Positions 8,439-17,477 of a stretch of DNA of 20,143 bases are shown in pieces (the stretch's first letter is position 1; every line of letters starts with the position of its first letter). The translations under genes and the position numbers were made by a program. The notes under the pieces were generated by a model. That model saw only the letters and a list, made by a program, of their open reading frames with translations. It had not been told where the DNA came from and made no database searches. Source of the stretch: a virus; IMG/VR virus record IMGVR_UViG_3300014838_000100, positions 1-20,143 of that record; one strand, written 5' to 3'.

Positions 8439-8971
8439 TGGCTAGACCTCCTAAACCTATTGACTGGAATCTTGTGGAAGCTAAAGTAGCCGCCGGATGT
8501 AATGGAATAGAGATTTGCCAGGATTTTCGCCTAGATGATACTACATTCTATAATCGTTTCAAACAAGAATATGGGGAAAGTTTCCAAGATTATTCGCTTC
8601 GGCAACAGAGAGTAGGCGAAGGAAATATAAAATATGTTCAATATATTAAAGCAATAGGACTATCTAGGGATGGAGAGTTAACAAAAAAAGGGGATACTAC
8701 ATTGCTTATTCACCTAGGCCGTACCCGTTGCAATCAAGTAGAGGCTCAACCTTCTAAAGAAAAAGAGCTGCCCCCTACGGAAAATTATCTTCAATTACAA
8801 GACCGTTACATACAATTAGAACACAAATTCAATGAGTTAATGAATGCTCTTAAGCCCCAAGCAGACGCTCAGTTACATGGAAGCAACAGCCCCGTTCAAC
8901 ATCTGGGTGGGAGCGATATCATCGGGGAAATCCCACATAGCGACGCAGAAGGTAATAGAGAGACTCCGTAA
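8438..8971 (+). CDS. terS: Terminase small subunit
   Basis: A 177-residue protein. The N-terminus (about residues 8-45, DWNLVEAKVAAGCNGIEICQ followed by DFRLDDTTFYNRF) is a helix-turn-helix of the sort used by phage TerS proteins to recognise the packaging site. The middle includes a helical stretch (LQDRYIQLEHKFNELMNAL) suited to oligomerisation. Its last 42 codons overlap the TerL reading frame, including the part coding the TerL Walker A. The tail is hydrophilic and could contact the large subunit. Call rests on the HTH, length and position before TerL. Confidence 0.8.
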   Translation: MARPPKPIDWNLVEAKVAAGCNGIEICQDFRLDDTTFYNRFKQEYGESFQDYSLRQQRVGEGNIKYVQYIKAIGLSRDGELTKKGDTTLLIHLGRTRCNQVEAQPSKEKELPPTENYLQLQDRYIQLEHKFNELMNALKPQADAQLHGSNSPVQHLGGSDIIGEIPHSDAEGNRETP

Positions 8972-10133
8972 TGGACCTCCTGGCGACGTGCTTTTCACTG
9001 GCGTTAGCCGTACTACTATCCAGCATAATATTCTGTCTCTTCTCTATCCTGCCTTAGGATTTCCTATGCCTTCTCCCAAATGCATGCAAACGCAGCTTTA
9101 TGGAAGAGATGTCTACTTTAAAGGCGTCCATGACTCCGGAGCCTATAAAGACATTCAAGGGATGACTCTTGCTCTAGCATTCTGTGATGAGGTAGTCAAT
9201 ATGCCTCAAAACGTATGGAATATGCTTATCGGCCGTCTACGTAAACCTGGAGCTCAGCTTTTTGCTACCTGTAACCCCGAAGGGCCAGCCCATTGGTTTA
9301 AGAAAGAGATTATCGATCAAGCAGACGAAAAAGGGGTGAAGTATTGGACCTTCTTGATGGAAGACAATCCTACGCTTACAGTTGAATATGTAGAGCGTAT
9401 GAAAAAAATGTATACTGGTATGTGGTATAAGCGCTACATTCTGGGCGAATGGGCAGTAGCTCATGGGTTAATATATGATTCTTTCGACAAGGAAAACATC
9501 TATGAGAATGATCAGGATACTCCGAACTACTATGTCGTTGGTGTTGACTATGGGACTAGTAATGCTACTGCTGCCGTGTTATGTGGGATTCGCCCTACTC
9601 GTTGGCCTCAAATCACTGTTGAGAGGGAGTATTACTATGATTCGGTCAAAGGTGGGCGGCAAAAAACGGACGACGAACTAGCTCGCGATATAAAAGATTT
9701 TGTATCTTATCACAATGTTTCGGCTATCTATGTCGACCCCTCAGCGGCAAGCTTAAAGCTTGAGCTTCAACGCAGGAATCTTCCAGTTCTGTCGGCTAAG
9801 AACGACGTGCTTCCCGGCATCAAGACAGTCTCTAAGTTCATCGCTAACAAAAATATGGTTATTAATAAAAACTGCACAACATTGATCGAAGCCCTTCAAT
9901 CTTATTGTTGGGATCCCGCTGCTGCGGATCGTGGTGAGGATAAGCCATTAAAAAAATTTGACCATATTTGTGACTGCACTCGCTACGCAATTTTTAGCGC
10001 CTTTCCTTCGGGAGAATTCAATAATCCTGATGAGCATCTCACGATCGATCAAATTCGAAGAAATGTTTATGGCTCCAATGATGATAATTATGTTAGTGAT
10101 ATGTTAGGTTTAGGCCAAGGAGGATATTTCTAG
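8844..10133 (+). CDS. terL: Terminase large subunit
   Basis: A 429-residue packaging motor and nuclease. Walker A is GAISSGKS (residues 23-30), Walker B is LALAFCDE (109-116), and the coupling motif is TCNPEGP (142-148). The C-terminal RNase H-like nuclease has Asp235 in VVGVDYGTS, Asp298 in IYVDPS and DHICDCTRYA (Asp373/Asp377). The LSPKQ opening is typical of Terminase_6/PBSX-like large subunits. The start lies 128 nt inside terS. It drives ATP-dependent packaging of concatemers into proheads through the portal encoded downstream. Confidence 0.95.
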   Translation: MLLSPKQTLSYMEATAPFNIWVGAISSGKSHIATQKVIERLRNGPPGDVLFTGVSRTTIQHNILSLLYPALGFPMPSPKCMQTQLYGRDVYFKGVHDSGAYKDIQGMTLALAFCDEVVNMPQNVWNMLIGRLRKPGAQLFATCNPEGPAHWFKKEIIDQADEKGVKYWTFLMEDNPTLTVEYVERMKKMYTGMWYKRYILGEWAVAHGLIYDSFDKENIYENDQDTPNYYVVGVDYGTSNATAAVLCGIRPTRWPQITVEREYYYDSVKGGRQKTDDELARDIKDFVSYHNVSAIYVDPSAASLKLELQRRNLPVLSAKNDVLPGIKTVSKFIANKNMVINKNCTTLIEALQSYCWDPAAADRGEDKPLKKFDHICDCTRYAIFSAFPSGEFNNPDEHLTIDQIRRNVYGSNDDNYVSDMLGLGQGGYF

Positions 10134-10186: not shown

Positions 10187-10870
10187 ATGAAAATCTGTCA
10201 AACTTGTTCAAAAGAAAATCATTCTAATTACGTCGACCTGTGCCAATCGTGCTATAATAAGCAATGGTTTGCCAGCATTCCAGTAAGAAATTGTAATACG
10301 TGCCAAAAAACCTACAAAAATTTCGGTATTAATTGCCACACCTGCTCTCGTGTTCTACGAGAAGCTAACCGAGTATGTGAAAAATGCTCACATTGTCTTA
10401 GAGACAAAATTAAAATCATTAATAGAAGTTCCATGCTTTGCGGCAAATGTTATAGAAATAAATGCGACAATGAAATTCCTGGATACAAAGAAAAAAGAAT
10501 TCTTAACAACAGAAAGTCGCATAGAAAATATAGAGGACACGAACCCGATGGTCCACTTCGACGAAAAGCTGCGGGAGAGGGATATATAAATAAACACGGT
10601 TACAAAATCATTGCGCGAGTGGGACATCCGAATGCTAATAAGGATAAGGGAGCGATCCCAGAACATGTTTGGGTCATGTCTGAATATATGGGCAGACCTT
10701 TAAAAAAAGGCGAATCGGTCCATCATAAAAATGGAATTCGAGATGATAATCGGATAGAAAATCTAGAAATTTGGCATCGTGCGCAACCTGCTGGACAAAA
10801 ACTTGAAGATAAGATTAGATATTTTAAGGAATTTCTAATAGAGTACGGGTATAAAATTCTAGATCCTTGA
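10187..10870 (+). CDS. Free-standing HNH homing endonuclease with Cys-rich N-terminus
   Basis: A 227-residue protein with AGGAGG just upstream. The N-terminal 95 residues hold seven Cys clusters: 4/7, 19/22, 36/39, 50/53, 64/67, 70 and 85/88/93. These form several probable zinc sites for DNA binding. The C-terminal HNH_3 domain reads HVWVMSEYMGRPL (His160), then VHHKNGIRDDNRIENL with His179, His180, Asn188 and Asn192. It sits between terL and portal, which normally adjoin, and its stop overlaps the portal ribosome site. It is therefore a likely mobile endonuclease gene without an intron. All catalytic residues look intact. Confidence 0.9.
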   Translation: MKICQTCSKENHSNYVDLCQSCYNKQWFASIPVRNCNTCQKTYKNFGINCHTCSRVLREANRVCEKCSHCLRDKIKIINRSSMLCGKCYRNKCDNEIPGYKEKRILNNRKSHRKYRGHEPDGPLRRKAAGEGYINKHGYKIIARVGHPNANKDKGAIPEHVWVMSEYMGRPLKKGESVHHKNGIRDDNRIENLEIWHRAQPAGQKLEDKIRYFKEFLIEYGYKILDP

Positions 10871-10876
10871 GGTAAT

Positions 10877-12919
10877 TTGGGTAGCTACGAAAATTCGAAT
10901 TCGGGGTACAGCCTTGGAAATGGTTATCTCGATGGTTCCGATCCTAAAGCCAAACATATGAAACAGAGGATGGATAGTTTCTATGTCAAAACGTATCCGT
11001 CGAATTCTGCCTACTGGGTTCAAGGAAGTATTGACAAGCGCTTCAAGGTAGGGGATCAGACTCTTCTCTCCATGATGTATGGAGACAACAATTACTATCA
11101 AACTAGGCGTTGGTTTTTCAACCTAATTCGCCGTCAAATCAATATGATATGTGGATTTCAGCGAAAGAACCGCAAATCCACCATTACCATACCTAATCAC
11201 GACGCTGATCCCCTCGCTGATGAATTCAATGCATGCTTAAAATGGAGTGAAGAGAGAGATGGTTTTCAAGAATATCTTAGCGAAGGTTTCGAAGGAGCAT
11301 GCGACACCGGGATGTCTCTGTTACATTTGTATCCCGATTATACTCTCGATCCTATCAGCGGTGATCTATTTACTGACCAGGTTTCCTATAATAATTTTTT
11401 GATTGATCCCTATTTTCGAAAGCAAGACCTCACCGATTGTTCGGCAATCTGGAGGAGAAGATGGGTCACAAATATGCAGGCGCAAGCCCTTCTGCCTGGT
11501 CATGCTAAAGAAATAGCCAAGATGAGACCCTCTGGACTTAAAGATGGAAGATTTCCTCTCCAGGCTGAACTCCTCAACATGGCTACTAATCAACTCTTTG
11601 CCTATGACGAGTTCCACTATCGAGACACCCGAGAAGCAACAACCATCCTTGACCCTATCTCTGGTGAATCTGTCCTTTGGGAAGAAGATGAAGAGGATTC
11701 CGAAGATGAACTCAAGAGAACTATGCAGATGCAACCGTGGCTCATAGTTAGAAAGACTCAGGTGCCCACTGTTAAGCTATGCATTTGTCTAGGGGGTCGA
11801 GTTCTCTATGATGGGCCCAATTTGCTTAACATCGATTCATATCCTTTCGTTCCTCTACTCACCTATTACGAGCCTGATATTCAATCCTATGCTTGGCGCG
11901 TGCAAGGAGTGGTCCGCAATCTTAGGGATTGTCAATATCTTTATAATATGCGCAAGGTCATTGAGATGGACATCCTCCAGTCTCAAATTAATTCAGGATG
12001 GATCTATCCAGTTGATGCTGTTGTAGATCCTAAGTCATTTAGACAATCTGGACAAGGATTCCTAGTCCCTCTTAAAGCAGGTCACTTACCAAACGAGATA
12101 CAAAGAATTGAAGCAGCATCCATTCCCCAATCTCTCCTTGAACTTTCACGCAGTCTTAGTGAAGACATTACCCGAATCTCAGGAGTCAACGAAGAGTTAC
12201 TGGGGGCAGCAACGGACGATAAATCCGGAATACTTTCTATGCTTCGGCAAGGAGCGGGACTTACAACTTTACAAACAATATTTGACAAATTGGACTACTC
12301 TCAACGCTTATATGGTAAGATCCGGTTACAAGCCATACGAAAGAACTTTTCTAAAGGCAAGATTTCTAGCATCCTTGGTCATACTCCAAGCGAGCGCTTC
12401 TTCACCTCCCACTCTCTCAAATACTCGGTATTTGTCGAAGAGGGTAACTATTCCGCCTCCCAACGTCAAATGGAGCTCCAACAACTTTTACATTTCCGCG
12501 AAATCGGAATGACAGTAGCTGACAAAACGATTTGGAGGGCGGCTTTCTTAACCAATAAGAAACAAGCTGAAGAAGATGCAGCCGAGCAATCTCAACAACA
12601 GCAACAAGCTCAACAGGCACAAGCCGAGCAGCAATCGAAGGTTGAGAATGCTAAAGTTATGGCGTCGTTTGCGAAAGCGAAGAGCGATCTTGCTCGTGAA
12701 AAAGAGATTTTGGCTTCAGCTCAGGAGAAAATAAGCAAAATTCAAGACAACCAGGCCGATGCAGAGCGTAAAAGAATGGAATCGGACTTAGGACTTGTAA
12801 AGATTATGCTTGAATTAGAGACAATGGACTTCAATCAAATGAAGAGCGCTTTCGATATGGCACAAGCAATCAAATTAGCAAATCAACCTCAACCTTTACC
12901 TCAAGCAATAGGCCAATAA
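10877..12919 (+). CDS. Portal protein (P22-like)
   Basis: A 680-residue protein read from TTG 10877, with GAGGT at 10869-10873; no closer ATG fits. The length, the long N-terminal core with RRQINMICGFQRKNRKSTI, the central FLIDPYFRKQDLTDCSAIWR and ISGVNEELLGA, and the long Gln/Ala/Lys helical C-terminus (about 550-655) match P22-like portals. The dodecameric portal forms the DNA entry channel at one capsid vertex and docks TerL. The Gln-rich helix could form the internal barrel seen in P22. It follows the HNH insertion directly. Confidence 0.85.
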   Translation: MGSYENSNSGYSLGNGYLDGSDPKAKHMKQRMDSFYVKTYPSNSAYWVQGSIDKRFKVGDQTLLSMMYGDNNYYQTRRWFFNLIRRQINMICGFQRKNRKSTITIPNHDADPLADEFNACLKWSEERDGFQEYLSEGFEGACDTGMSLLHLYPDYTLDPISGDLFTDQVSYNNFLIDPYFRKQDLTDCSAIWRRRWVTNMQAQALLPGHAKEIAKMRPSGLKDGRFPLQAELLNMATNQLFAYDEFHYRDTREATTILDPISGESVLWEEDEEDSEDELKRTMQMQPWLIVRKTQVPTVKLCICLGGRVLYDGPNLLNIDSYPFVPLLTYYEPDIQSYAWRVQGVVRNLRDCQYLYNMRKVIEMDILQSQINSGWIYPVDAVVDPKSFRQSGQGFLVPLKAGHLPNEIQRIEAASIPQSLLELSRSLSEDITRISGVNEELLGAATDDKSGILSMLRQGAGLTTLQTIFDKLDYSQRLYGKIRLQAIRKNFSKGKISSILGHTPSERFFTSHSLKYSVFVEEGNYSASQRQMELQQLLHFREIGMTVADKTIWRAAFLTNKKQAEEDAAEQSQQQQQAQQAQAEQQSKVENAKVMASFAKAKSDLAREKEILASAQEKISKIQDNQADAERKRMESDLGLVKIMLELETMDFNQMKSAFDMAQAIKLANQPQPLPQAIGQ

Positions 12920-13746: not shown

Positions 13747-14114
13747 TGAATGAAAATGGATATGAAGAATCCGATATGATCAAACCAAAAAAAAGATTTG
13801 AAGATGATTTTTTTGCTTTGTCTGCCCAAGATGCAAAAATTGTCTTAGAAATGCGCACTAAAATGCACAATATGCTTCGAGTTTTTGGTTATCCTAAACT
13901 TGTCGCTTTATTATCCGGCGAGGTAGTAGACGTTTATAGATCATGTTCAGTGGCCAAAGAAGATTTTATGCATGCGATGAGTTGTTACTGGGATCAACAA
14001 GCCGCTGTTTATACCATTCCTAAAGAAGAAGTAGAAAGGGCAACCATGGAAGTATTCGAATTTTGTAGTAGCAACTTAATTCGAATGAAAGAAAGAAAAG
14101 AGAACATTGCTTGA
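13746..14114 (+). CDS. Unknown late protein
   Basis: A 122-residue protein from ATG 13746, overlapping the previous stop (TGATG), with AAGGAAG upstream. After a charged N-terminus it appears mostly helical (LSAQDAKIVLEMRTKMHNML, EVERATMEVFEFCSSNLIRM). No motif is recognised. It overlaps the next gene's TTG start by 4 nt (TTGA). Confidence 0.65.
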   Translation: MNENGYEESDMIKPKKRFEDDFFALSAQDAKIVLEMRTKMHNMLRVFGYPKLVALLSGEVVDVYRSCSVAKEDFMHAMSCYWDQQAAVYTIPKEEVERATMEVFEFCSSNLIRMKERKENIA

Positions 14115-14749
14115 GCTTTCCTCTAACTCCATCGGACAAAGTAAATAAGGTTTTCACGGCAGGCGCTCTAGCTTATAAGGCTTCGCATGATCCTACTTCT
14201 TATGATAGCCTTGAGGTTGGCCATGCTCTCACAGAAGACATAGCAAAAGAGCTAGAGATTTGCGCTAGAAGGCATAGAGATATCTTCGATGAGGATGAAT
14301 ATTGCGTGGGTTATGTTTTGGCTGGTGATCCTCTCATAAAGAATCTGATGAGACGCAAATTCTTTGCCTTTCTCTATTTACCCTCTCCTCGACCTAATCA
14401 GGCTGTGTTCCTCTATAATAAACGCTTGGATCAGTTTACAAAGCGACTCTGGACTCTTCCTAATGCCTGGACGATGGCTTGTCTATCTGAATTGACTTTT
14501 GTTGATCCCAAGTTAAGAGAGATGAAAGGATGGAGTGACGCATTCTATGCAGCAAAGTTTTGGGATCACATTCGAAAGCAACATAATATTTCGATGCTTT
14601 CTGAAATAGAATACTTAAATGCAAACCGTGAAAAACTCATCAAGGCGGGATGTCAAGAGACTAAGTCTTTTACTTCCGATCCCTTCGATTTTAGTAAGGT
14701 CACGGTTAATAAGGTCGTAAACCCTGACGATGCCATCGTTAAGCAATGA
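14111..14749 (+). CDS. Unknown conserved-looking late protein (TTG start)
   Basis: A 212-residue protein from TTG 14111, overlapping the previous stop as TTGA. It is globular and Phe/Leu/Arg-rich, with RRKFFAFLYLPSPRPNQAVF and LWTLPNAWTMACLSEL as distinctive stretches. Its place between portal and scaffold suggests a head or injection-related role, but no family is recognised. Its last 135 nt are antisense to the alpha-CTD-like gene, so both strands appear to be coding there. The C-terminal 45 residues look polar and may be tolerant of that constraint. Confidence 0.65.
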   Translation: MSFPLTPSDKVNKVFTAGALAYKASHDPTSYDSLEVGHALTEDIAKELEICARRHRDIFDEDEYCVGYVLAGDPLIKNLMRRKFFAFLYLPSPRPNQAVFLYNKRLDQFTKRLWTLPNAWTMACLSELTFVDPKLREMKGWSDAFYAAKFWDHIRKQHNISMLSEIEYLNANREKLIKAGCQETKSFTSDPFDFSKVTVNKVVNPDDAIVKQ

Positions 14750-14908
14750 TTTTTCTAAAGACTTGGGTAGGCACAGCACTTGAATTGGAACGTTGGCTCC
14801 CATGTAATAGAGCGTTTTCCTATAGTTATCGAAATCGTCTTTTAGATTTGTTTTTGCAAGAGGTTGAACATCAGGGTTAATAATAGAGATTAAATCATCA
14901 TCATTCAT
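14615..14908 (-). CDS. RNA polymerase alpha-CTD-like helix-hairpin-helix protein (leftward)
   Basis: A 97-residue leftward frame from ATG 14908 to TAA 14617-14615, against the direction of all surrounding genes. The C-terminal half (LPKSLEKSLLNDGIVRVYDL, NRDLTKIEGIGSKRLSLL) aligns by eye with the alpha-subunit C-terminal domain of bacterial RNA polymerase, whose pattern is S...N.L...GI..V.DL....DL.KI...G.K.L. The E. coli alpha-CTD binds UP-element DNA and activators. The N-terminal half is acidic and unknown. No Shine-Dalgarno precedes the ATG. It may influence host transcription; it overlaps the 3' end of the gene at 14111-14749. Confidence 0.6.
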   Translation of the reverse strand: MNDDDLISIINPDVQPLAKTNLKDDFDNYRKTLYYMGANVPIQVLCLPKSLEKSLLNDGIVRVYDLINRDLTKIEGIGSKRLSLLTSRLDEFFTVCI

Positions 14909-14914
14909 AGGATA

Positions 14915-14943
14915 ATAATATGGAACAAGAAGTAAAAATACAA
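14915..14943 (-). promoter_or_regulatory. Candidate leftward promoter of the alpha-CTD-like gene
   Basis: On the minus strand TTGTAT (14943-14938), a 17-bp spacer and TATTAT (14920-14915) form a fair sigma70-type promoter. Only six bases separate the -10 from the ATG at 14908, so the transcript would be leaderless. It lies in the start of the scaffold gene. Confidence 0.4.
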
Positions 14944-15636
14944 GAGCCTGAAGTAACTGCATCTGAGGTAAAAAGTTCTGAATCTGTCTCTCCACCTACA
15001 AGTGAAGATACACCTGAGCAAATTAACTGGAAGAAATTCCGGGAAGCTAGGGAGAAAGAGAGAAAAGAGAAAGTTGAGGCCGAGAAGAGAGCTAACGAAA
15101 AAGAAGCTGAAGTCTCTGCCCTTAAAGCAGCCATGGAAGCTCTTGTCAATAAGCCAGAATCAAATAACCGTCAAATAACTGAATCTTTCGAAGAGACTGA
15201 AGAAGAGAGAATTGCACGTCTGGTTTCCCAATCTCTAGAAAAAGAACGTCGCAAGCATCAAGAAGAGAATTTAAAGAGAGAACAAACCGAATTTCCCCAA
15301 CGGCTAGCCAATGACTTCAAAGATTTCCATCAAGTTTGTAACTCCGAAAATCTCGATTACCTTGAGTATCATTATCCTGAAGTTGCTGAAGCCTACAAAG
15401 AGATGCCAGATGGCTACTCTAAATGGTCGAAGATATACAAGGCTGTAAAGAGATTCGTTCCTAATCCTGACTCCAAGAAAGAACAAGCAAAAGCAGAGAA
15501 GAATTTCATGAAACCTCAAGCTATGAGTGTTTCGGGCAAGACGCAGGTAGGAGATACGGCCCCTCAGTCCTTAGATGATAAGCGTAAATCAGATAATTGG
15601 TCCAGGATGCAAAAAGTAATGCGATCGGGACCTTAA
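14920..15636 (+). CDS. Capsid scaffolding protein
   Basis: A 238-residue acidic and charged protein with an extended N-terminus, a long predicted coiled coil (about 38-75, and again about 95-125, rich in Glu, Lys and Arg) and a basic C-terminal tail ending SRMQKVMRSGP. This composition and its place just before the capsid gene are those of phage scaffolding proteins, which assemble with the coat protein and leave the prohead before or during packaging. In P22 a C-terminal basic helix-turn-helix binds coat. A diverged copy of this tail lies downstream at 15736-15771. Confidence 0.8.
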   Translation: MEQEVKIQEPEVTASEVKSSESVSPPTSEDTPEQINWKKFREAREKERKEKVEAEKRANEKEAEVSALKAAMEALVNKPESNNRQITESFEETEEERIARLVSQSLEKERRKHQEENLKREQTEFPQRLANDFKDFHQVCNSENLDYLEYHYPEVAEAYKEMPDGYSKWSKIYKAVKRFVPNPDSKKEQAKAEKNFMKPQAMSVSGKTQVGDTAPQSLDDKRKSDNWSRMQKVMRSGP

Positions 15637-16409: not shown

Positions 16410-16525
16410 GAGGATTCGCAATCCTCATCCATTCCGGCTGACATAAGGCTTCGCCAACCTAGGCTGATTAGTTTTTTCGCCAAAAACACGAAATAAACAA
16501 TTCAATTTAGGTTCAGGCTTATGTC
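16410..16525 (+). promoter_or_regulatory. Structured leader of the capsid mRNA
   Basis: The leader holds a hairpin GAGGATT-CGC-AATCCTC (16410-16426). GACATAAG (16440-16447) is complementary to CTTATGTC (16518-16525), which contains the capsid start codon. Pairing would hide the ATG. A T6 run near 16472-16477 has no good stem before it. Regulation is speculative. Confidence 0.35.
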
Positions 16526-17477
16526 AACTGGTATCACCAATATCAATAACATGGCTCCCGAGCTCCCTCTTCAGTTTTCTGAAGACCTGCTCTCAACGCC
16601 CATGTTTAACCTCATCCACTCTTTCGGAGCTGACCTTCACTACGCAGAAGCACATATCGGACGTAATATCCGTATGTCTCGCTATGAGCGTCTCTCCACA
16701 AACGGAGGACAATTAGACGGATCGGGTATCGACCCTGCTCCTGAAGTTGTAGTCCGTACTGATATCGACGCTAAGGTCGAAATTTATGCAAAGACTGTAG
16801 TAGTAAACGAGCAAGTCGTTCTCTGGGAGAATGACAAAGTTCTAACAAAGTTTACTGCATTATTAGGTCAGTGGCTTCGTGAAAAAGAAGATTTACTTAT
16901 GCGTGACCTTTACGCGTCGAGTGTATCCTACATTAACGCCACTGGGGGCGTTAACGGCCTACAACCAAGTGAAATATCTCGCGCAGATGTGAACAACATC
17001 GAGCGTATCTTGCTCGGAAACGATGCTCGCACAATGCTTGAAGTGATCGAAGCTGAGGATAAATTCTCAACAGGTCCCACACGCGATGCGTTCATTGCTC
17101 TTGCAAGCACCGATATCACAACTGACCTTCAAAACGTTCAGGGTGTTCTACTCAAAAATACGTATCCCGATCAAGACGGATTAAGACCGGAAGAGTACTG
17201 CTCGATCTCACGTTTCCGATTCTTTGTATCGTCTAAAGCGGCCTTCATCCCGGGGGCTGCATCCAATGGCTCTACCGTCTATACAATTCCAATGTATGGC
17301 CTAGAGGCGGCGGCTAAGGTTGAGCAAAATAATTACACAGCGATTTTAGGTTATAGACCTCCATACGTTGTATCTAGTGTTGCGCAAAACTCGCAACTCT
17401 ACGCGAAGTTTGCAATTGGTCGAGCAATTACCAATCAAAACTGGATCTCTGGTCTTAACGTTACAACAAGACTATAA
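16521..17477 (+). CDS. Major capsid protein (N4gp56-like)
   Basis: A 318-residue protein, the length of N4gp56/P22-like HK97-fold coats. The pattern fits that family: NIRMSRYERLST, a Pro/Gly-rich loop (GGQLDGSGIDPAPEVVV), KVEIYAKTVVVNEQVVLWEND, and then long helices (LTKFTALLGQWLREKEDLLM). The C-terminal strand region ends WISGLNVTTRL. Copies of it build the icosahedral shell on the scaffold. It follows its own promoter and leader; the ribosome site is only a weak CAGG, and high expression may rely on the promoter. Confidence 0.8.
   Translation: MSTGITNINNMAPELPLQFSEDLLSTPMFNLIHSFGADLHYAEAHIGRNIRMSRYERLSTNGGQLDGSGIDPAPEVVVRTDIDAKVEIYAKTVVVNEQVVLWENDKVLTKFTALLGQWLREKEDLLMRDLYASSVSYINATGGVNGLQPSEISRADVNNIERILLGNDARTMLEVIEAEDKFSTGPTRDAFIALASTDITTDLQNVQGVLLKNTYPDQDGLRPEEYCSISRFRFFVSSKAAFIPGAASNGSTVYTIPMYGLEAAAKVEQNNYTAILGYRPPYVVSSVAQNSQLYAKFAIGRAITNQNWISGLNVTTRL

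Follow-up and report, generated by a model that had tools for sequence, protein, structure and literature searches.

The question raised by this locus is whether a small minus-strand frame lying within a rightward phage structural operon encodes a protein and, if so, what that protein resembles and does. The DNA analysed here, referred to as the window, is a 20,143-nt stretch of IMG/VR virus record IMGVR_UViG_3300014838_000100. It contains a P22-like structural operon with a terminase gene (8844–10133), a P22-type portal gene (10877–12919) and a capsid gene (16521–17477); an HNH endonuclease gene (10187–10870) is located between terminase and portal. A preliminary description of the window reported a 97-residue minus-strand ATG frame with a helix-hairpin-helix (HhH) core, overlapping a rightward gene by 135 nt. 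The frame, including the quoted HhH string, was found at 14908..14615 as described, and the stated overlap was confirmed: it covers the 3′-terminal part of the rightward ORF 14111–14749. The antisense ATG is 11 nt away from the ATG (14920) of a second rightward gene, which is called scaffold-like from its position between portal and capsid. The features of the locus are listed below, with their basis in brackets.

14615..14908, minus strand: antisense alpha-CTD-like gene, 97 aa, ATG start (ORF list; conservation; dN/dS)
14633..14794, minus strand: alpha-CTD-like domain, residues about 39–92 (profile matches; AF2 model; VIA-align)
14672..14731, minus strand: HhH core IVRVYDLINRDLTKIEGIGS, residues 60–79 (67-row alignment)
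14798..14845, minus strand: family-specific N-terminal helix, residues 22–37, outside the alpha-CTD-like domain (alignment; AF2)
14615..14749, no strand assigned: antisense overlap of 135 nt, covering the 3′-terminal part of the 212-aa gene
14909..14919, no strand assigned: 11 nt separating the two divergent ATGs (scaffold SD AGGAT on the plus strand)
14915..14943, minus strand: leftward promoter-like site, TTGTAT (14943–14938), 17-nt spacer, TATTAT (14920–14915)
14111..14749, plus strand: convergent late gene, 212 aa (without Pfam or PHROG match)
14920..15636, plus strand: divergent scaffold-like gene (position between portal and capsid)

The 212-aa neighbour, which also lacked a match by PDB fold comparison, gave an AF2 model with a pLDDT of 85 and has more than 200 relatives in viral contigs. 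It matched 11 IMG/VR contigs, and the antisense frame was present in all of them, with identity down to about 44%. A scan of IMG/VR with the antisense alignment yielded 97 relatives, of which 80 were retained. With the protein itself as bait, the position of the antisense gene was unchanged in 80/80 loci, where it is opposed to the 212-aa gene (convergent), the scaffold gene (divergent) and, where present, the capsid, portal and terminase homologues, so that the earlier statement that it runs against all of its neighbours is correct for each recognised neighbour. Scans in which the neighbouring genes served as bait are free of the bias that comes from selecting on the antisense protein itself, and 82 of the 83 loci obtained in this way held the antisense gene; the lone exception, L095, is a contig that stops inside the 212-aa gene, short of the site. 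The two sets share contigs, and 108 distinct proteins were collected in all. The lowest identity to the window protein in the 67-row alignment was 36%, and the length of the overlap was nearly constant among relatives (most often 123–132 nt). Distances between antisense proteins co-varied with those of the capsid (Pearson 0.65), scaffold, portal and 212-aa genes (Mantel p 0.001 each), as expected of a vertically inherited core gene and not of a roaming moron.

All-pairs dN/dS values were discarded because saturation made them useless, and close pairs were taken instead. In 13 close pairs, not all of which are independent, dN/dS of the antisense frame was 0.11 in the part free of overlap and 0.28 in the overlapping part, and the rates at its three codon positions were 0.27, 0.18 and 0.45. 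Among the five other frames of the same DNA, four gave values of 1.04, 1.09, 1.73 and 3.0, and the sister frame gave 0.25. Judged from these substitutions, purifying selection acts on the antisense protein in its own reading frame. The preliminary description had named conservation of the rightward frame alone as an outcome that would speak against it; this outcome is ruled out by the 80/80 and 82/83 loci together with dN/dS. These data show that the antisense frame codes for protein and belongs to the core genes of a P22-like phage clade, fixed between the 212-aa and scaffold-like genes. Neither the antisense protein nor its 212-aa neighbour was found in isolated phages (0 in 50,697 records searched), and the bacterial genomes searched contained no relative of the antisense protein.

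What does the product resemble? The preliminary description had matched it to the C-terminal domain of the RNA polymerase alpha subunit (alpha-CTD). This match holds by profile, by profile–profile comparison and by predicted fold; it fails in single-sequence searches. The window protein alone hit nothing in Pfam or PHROGs, RNA_pol_A_CTD (PF03118) included, and its PDB matches were at chance level. When a 67-member profile was compared with the PDB, the best 16 sequences were all RNA polymerase alpha (Thermus, Bacillus and others), with a best E-value of 4e-4. Aligned by hhalign to bacterial alpha-CTDs, the family profile gave a P-value of 1.1e-4 and a probability of 57%, and the reversed profile gave nothing. 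PF03118 was matched by 5/67 members, and its best E-value, 1.8e-4, was the lowest for any Pfam family; the curated cut-off of 23.8 bits was not reached, the best members scoring 17, 16 and 13 bits (E 1.8e-4 to 2.8e-3). The AF2 model (pLDDT 79) was compared with alpha-CTD chains by Foldseek (probability 1.00, E 0.2–0.5, TM of target 0.66–0.81, for a predicted model) and, by VIA-align, was superposed on 1z3e_B, the Spx-bound alpha-CTD, with a Z of 8.6 and an rmsd of 1.8 over 61 residues (34–94). The structure prediction proposed earlier thus agrees with the compact HhH fold of bacterial alpha-CTDs (PDB 1doq, 1z3e). The profile and the predicted fold show the product as a stand-alone alpha-CTD-like HhH domain with an added N-terminal helix, and the profile makes common ancestry with alpha-CTD visible with moderate, not overwhelming, support.

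The same data bear on whether the product is instead a small generic HhH DNA-binding protein, acting in recombination, packaging or the nucleoid, whose likeness to alpha-CTD reflects the common HhH fold only. We consider this possible, if rather unlikely, in view of the conserved I-K/E-G-L/I-G hairpin (I74, G76 and G78 are invariant in the 67 sequences), the matches to HHH_5 (6/67 members, best 8e-4) and IMS_HHH (7/67), and the RAD51 N-terminal HhH domains, which came close behind the alpha-CTDs in VIA-align (Z about 7–8). The nearness of the RAD51 domains means that the fold alone is not decisive and that the sequence profile has to decide; above noise, the profile ranks RNAP alpha chains alone, no Pfam family has a lower E-value than PF03118, and alpha-CTDs make up most of the top fold matches.

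The antisense protein differs from bacterial alpha-CTD in standing alone, without the N-terminal assembly domain, and under the Pfam cut-off; the 265, 261 and 287 determinants are gone, one loop is three residues shorter and an N-terminal helix is added. In the DNA-contact set R265, N268, G296, K298, S299 and E302, G296 alone is kept in all 67 sequences, as the invariant glycine of the family. The equivalents of R265 are mostly V, A, S or T, that of E302 is mostly L, that of S299 mostly R and that of E261 C in nearly all sequences; the N268 equivalent is not conserved, and profile–profile comparison places the loop with the 287 determinant three residues shorter than in alpha-CTD. The family conserves C46-L47-P48, E52, R62, D65 and R81, plus the N-terminal helix. 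R265, E261, E302 and the 287 loop are working residues of alpha-CTD; as these have been lost, the antisense protein is a derived stand-alone protein. The preliminary suggestion of a plain alpha-CTD mimic is not borne out, since the DNA- and activator-contact residues are not conserved. A plain decoy, binding UP elements or activators as the host alpha-CTD does, would fit the similarity in fold and profile; we nevertheless judge it improbable, because conservation does not extend to R265, N268, E302, E261 or the 287 loop and because the canonical version in a phage of the same clade, G006 (IMGVR_UViG_3300001798_000003), is a different protein. G006 carries the antisense gene and, in addition, a 139-aa canonical alpha-CTD protein (59 bits). 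Unlike the antisense gene, the latter lies elsewhere in the genome and keeps the contact residues (R265/N268/C269/G296/S299/E302), and its C-terminal part is longer. Its gene (L187:11053–11472) is oriented against the late operon and has an Arc/HicB-like gene beside it.

Phage alpha-CTD-domain proteins have already been annotated, and the antisense family is a variant of them. Proteins named 'RNA polymerase, alpha subunit, C-terminal' (A0A6J5MNY7, A0A6J5L490 and A0A5Q2WLP1 of Mycobacterium phage Mithril) are likewise phage-encoded and have the alpha-CTD fold; together with the G006 protein they are longer (128–149 aa) than the 97-aa antisense protein. Two uncharacterized UniProt proteins of uncultured Caudovirales phages, A0A6J5LGT9 and A0A6J5LGC0, shared 37–44% identity with it over 77–103 columns, gave Foldseek E-values of 2e-6 and 6e-6, and are evidently members of the antisense family. 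A tblastn search of phages with the Thermus alpha-CTD matched only six unannotated records, from Gram-positive hosts, which were taken to be host contamination. Other phages also redirect transcription through the alpha subunit. T4 Alt and ModA ADP-ribosylate Arg265 of host RNAP alpha, a residue whose meaning in alpha-CTD and targeting by T4 have been described (PMC2988021), and phiKMV-type Rac cleaves alpha (PMC7552054). These proteins modify or cleave alpha, whereas the antisense protein resembles alpha-CTD itself. The literature searched, on homologues of alpha-CTD in phages and on antisense late genes, contained no paper on the antisense family.

How might the gene be expressed? The divergent start codons of relatives are mostly 9–14 nt apart, and the gap is often AGGNNCCT, a near-palindrome that supplies an SD to both genes. 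The gap provides a minus-strand SD in about half of the relatives; none is present in the gap of the window and its lineage. An SD of at least 4 nt preceded the antisense start in 57% of relatives vs 13–15% in two controls, and CCT (AGG on the minus strand) occurred in 56% of scaffold leaders vs 0–7% at other late genes. These frequencies show the minus-strand SD to be apparently under selection, as is the amino-acid sequence. In the window, the −10 element TATTAT ends 6 nt before the ATG, so that an RNA would start at about the ATG, consistent with a leaderless start. Equally good promoter-like sites occur about 0.9 times per kb on the same strand, which makes this site only a fair one, and a stricter scan (threshold 9/12) did not list TTGTAT-17-TATTAT. 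Scores for a leftward promoter across the family were slightly higher than those of shuffles (p 0.006); the putative promoter signal is weak. The site described earlier is therefore present and fair, and the leaderless start belongs to the window's lineage only; the idea of a leaderless promoter conserved throughout the family was rejected, most relatives carrying an SD instead.

The fixed position of the gene over a 3′ end and beside a start region might be taken to mean that the locus acts through its antisense transcript, which would dampen expression of the 212-aa gene or the scaffold gene, with the frame being incidental. This is very improbable, because the dN/dS in the non-overlapping half and the selected minus-strand SD point to a selected protein; an RNA effect may exist in addition. 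Least probable of all is the reading as a moron-like accessory gene active in lysogens under a promoter of its own, which its separate strand and possible own promoter would favour, given that the gene is not sporadic (it was universal in the intact relatives examined, co-diverging with core genes), that a scan found no terminator-like site at it and that a tyrosine integrase was present in only 1/31 clade genomes (G033:C1:31153–31620).

We tentatively propose, at somewhat less than an even chance, that the antisense protein is a pre-late regulator of transcription by host RNAP that is silenced once late transcription crosses its gene. A promoter within the scaffold-like gene would drive its leftward expression, and it would regulate host-RNAP transcription before the late phase, probably through contacts with proteins (sigma region 4, an activator or NusA-like partners) and/or with DNA, non-specifically by way of the HhH; the loss of the 265, 261 and 287 determinants disfavours classical UP-element recognition. 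With the onset of rightward late transcription, the regulator would be switched off by convergent transcription together with antisense RNA, and regulator and late operon would thus be mutually exclusive in time. The regulator reading is supported by the fixed antisense position, the purifying selection, the minus-strand SD and the alpha-CTD profile and fold, by the second, canonical alpha-CTD protein of G006, and by the early or regulatory types of the other leftward genes in G004, the closest long relative. This genome (36.7 kb) has both ends inside one terminase gene, as would a complete circularly permuted genome, and its leftward genes are few: an exonuclease/RecT block, a two-gene island among tail genes that resembles the G006 island holding the Arc/HicB-like ribbon-helix-helix protein, a 404-aa HTH protein and the antisense gene. 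A T7-type polymerase was not seen in the clade search, which was run without a positive control; this is consistent with the use of host RNAP. The regulator reading is weakened by the weak leftward promoter signal, the lack of a terminator-like site in the scan, the replaced R265, E302 and E261 equivalents and the window protein's want of a convincing Pfam, PHROG or PDB match of its own. HhH domains are found in many proteins outside transcription and 6/67 members match HHH_5, and it is mostly the generic DNA-binding role that keeps our confidence low. More speculatively, and in our view unlikely as a whole, the locus could be a mutual-exclusion switch within the structural operon, in which an RNAP-like protein would hold back or redirect late transcription and would itself be extinguished by late read-through, with a near-palindromic ribosome-binding site common to the divergent starts in many members.

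To our knowledge, conserved protein-coding genes antisense to phage structural genes have rarely been shown. Here, every intact relative examined in a large uncultured clade carries such a gene, and selection can be seen in its amino acids as well as in its ribosome-binding site. It is a candidate phage transcription regulator, its relation to alpha-CTD suggests an unstudied phage route to control of host RNA polymerase, and through it the early–late switch of P22-like clade phages becomes testable.

Several minor observations were made in the clade genomes. The 404-aa leftward gene of G004 (L192:6396–7610), which has an HTH_Tnp-like end, is located between scaffold and capsid; no such ORF is listed at the corresponding place in the window. 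At L162:3441–3806, the antisense gene is apparently frame-shifted, with two overlapping matching frames, owing to sequencing error or decay. The portal is present on three MAG contigs from unrelated bins; L095, L096 and L097 are MAG contigs with clade phages, and their bins conflict (Burkholderiales, Nitrospiraceae and Bacteroidetes). In G029, a weak second alpha-CTD-like match (C1:32346–32525; locus L189; 16 bits) lies far from the antisense gene of that genome.
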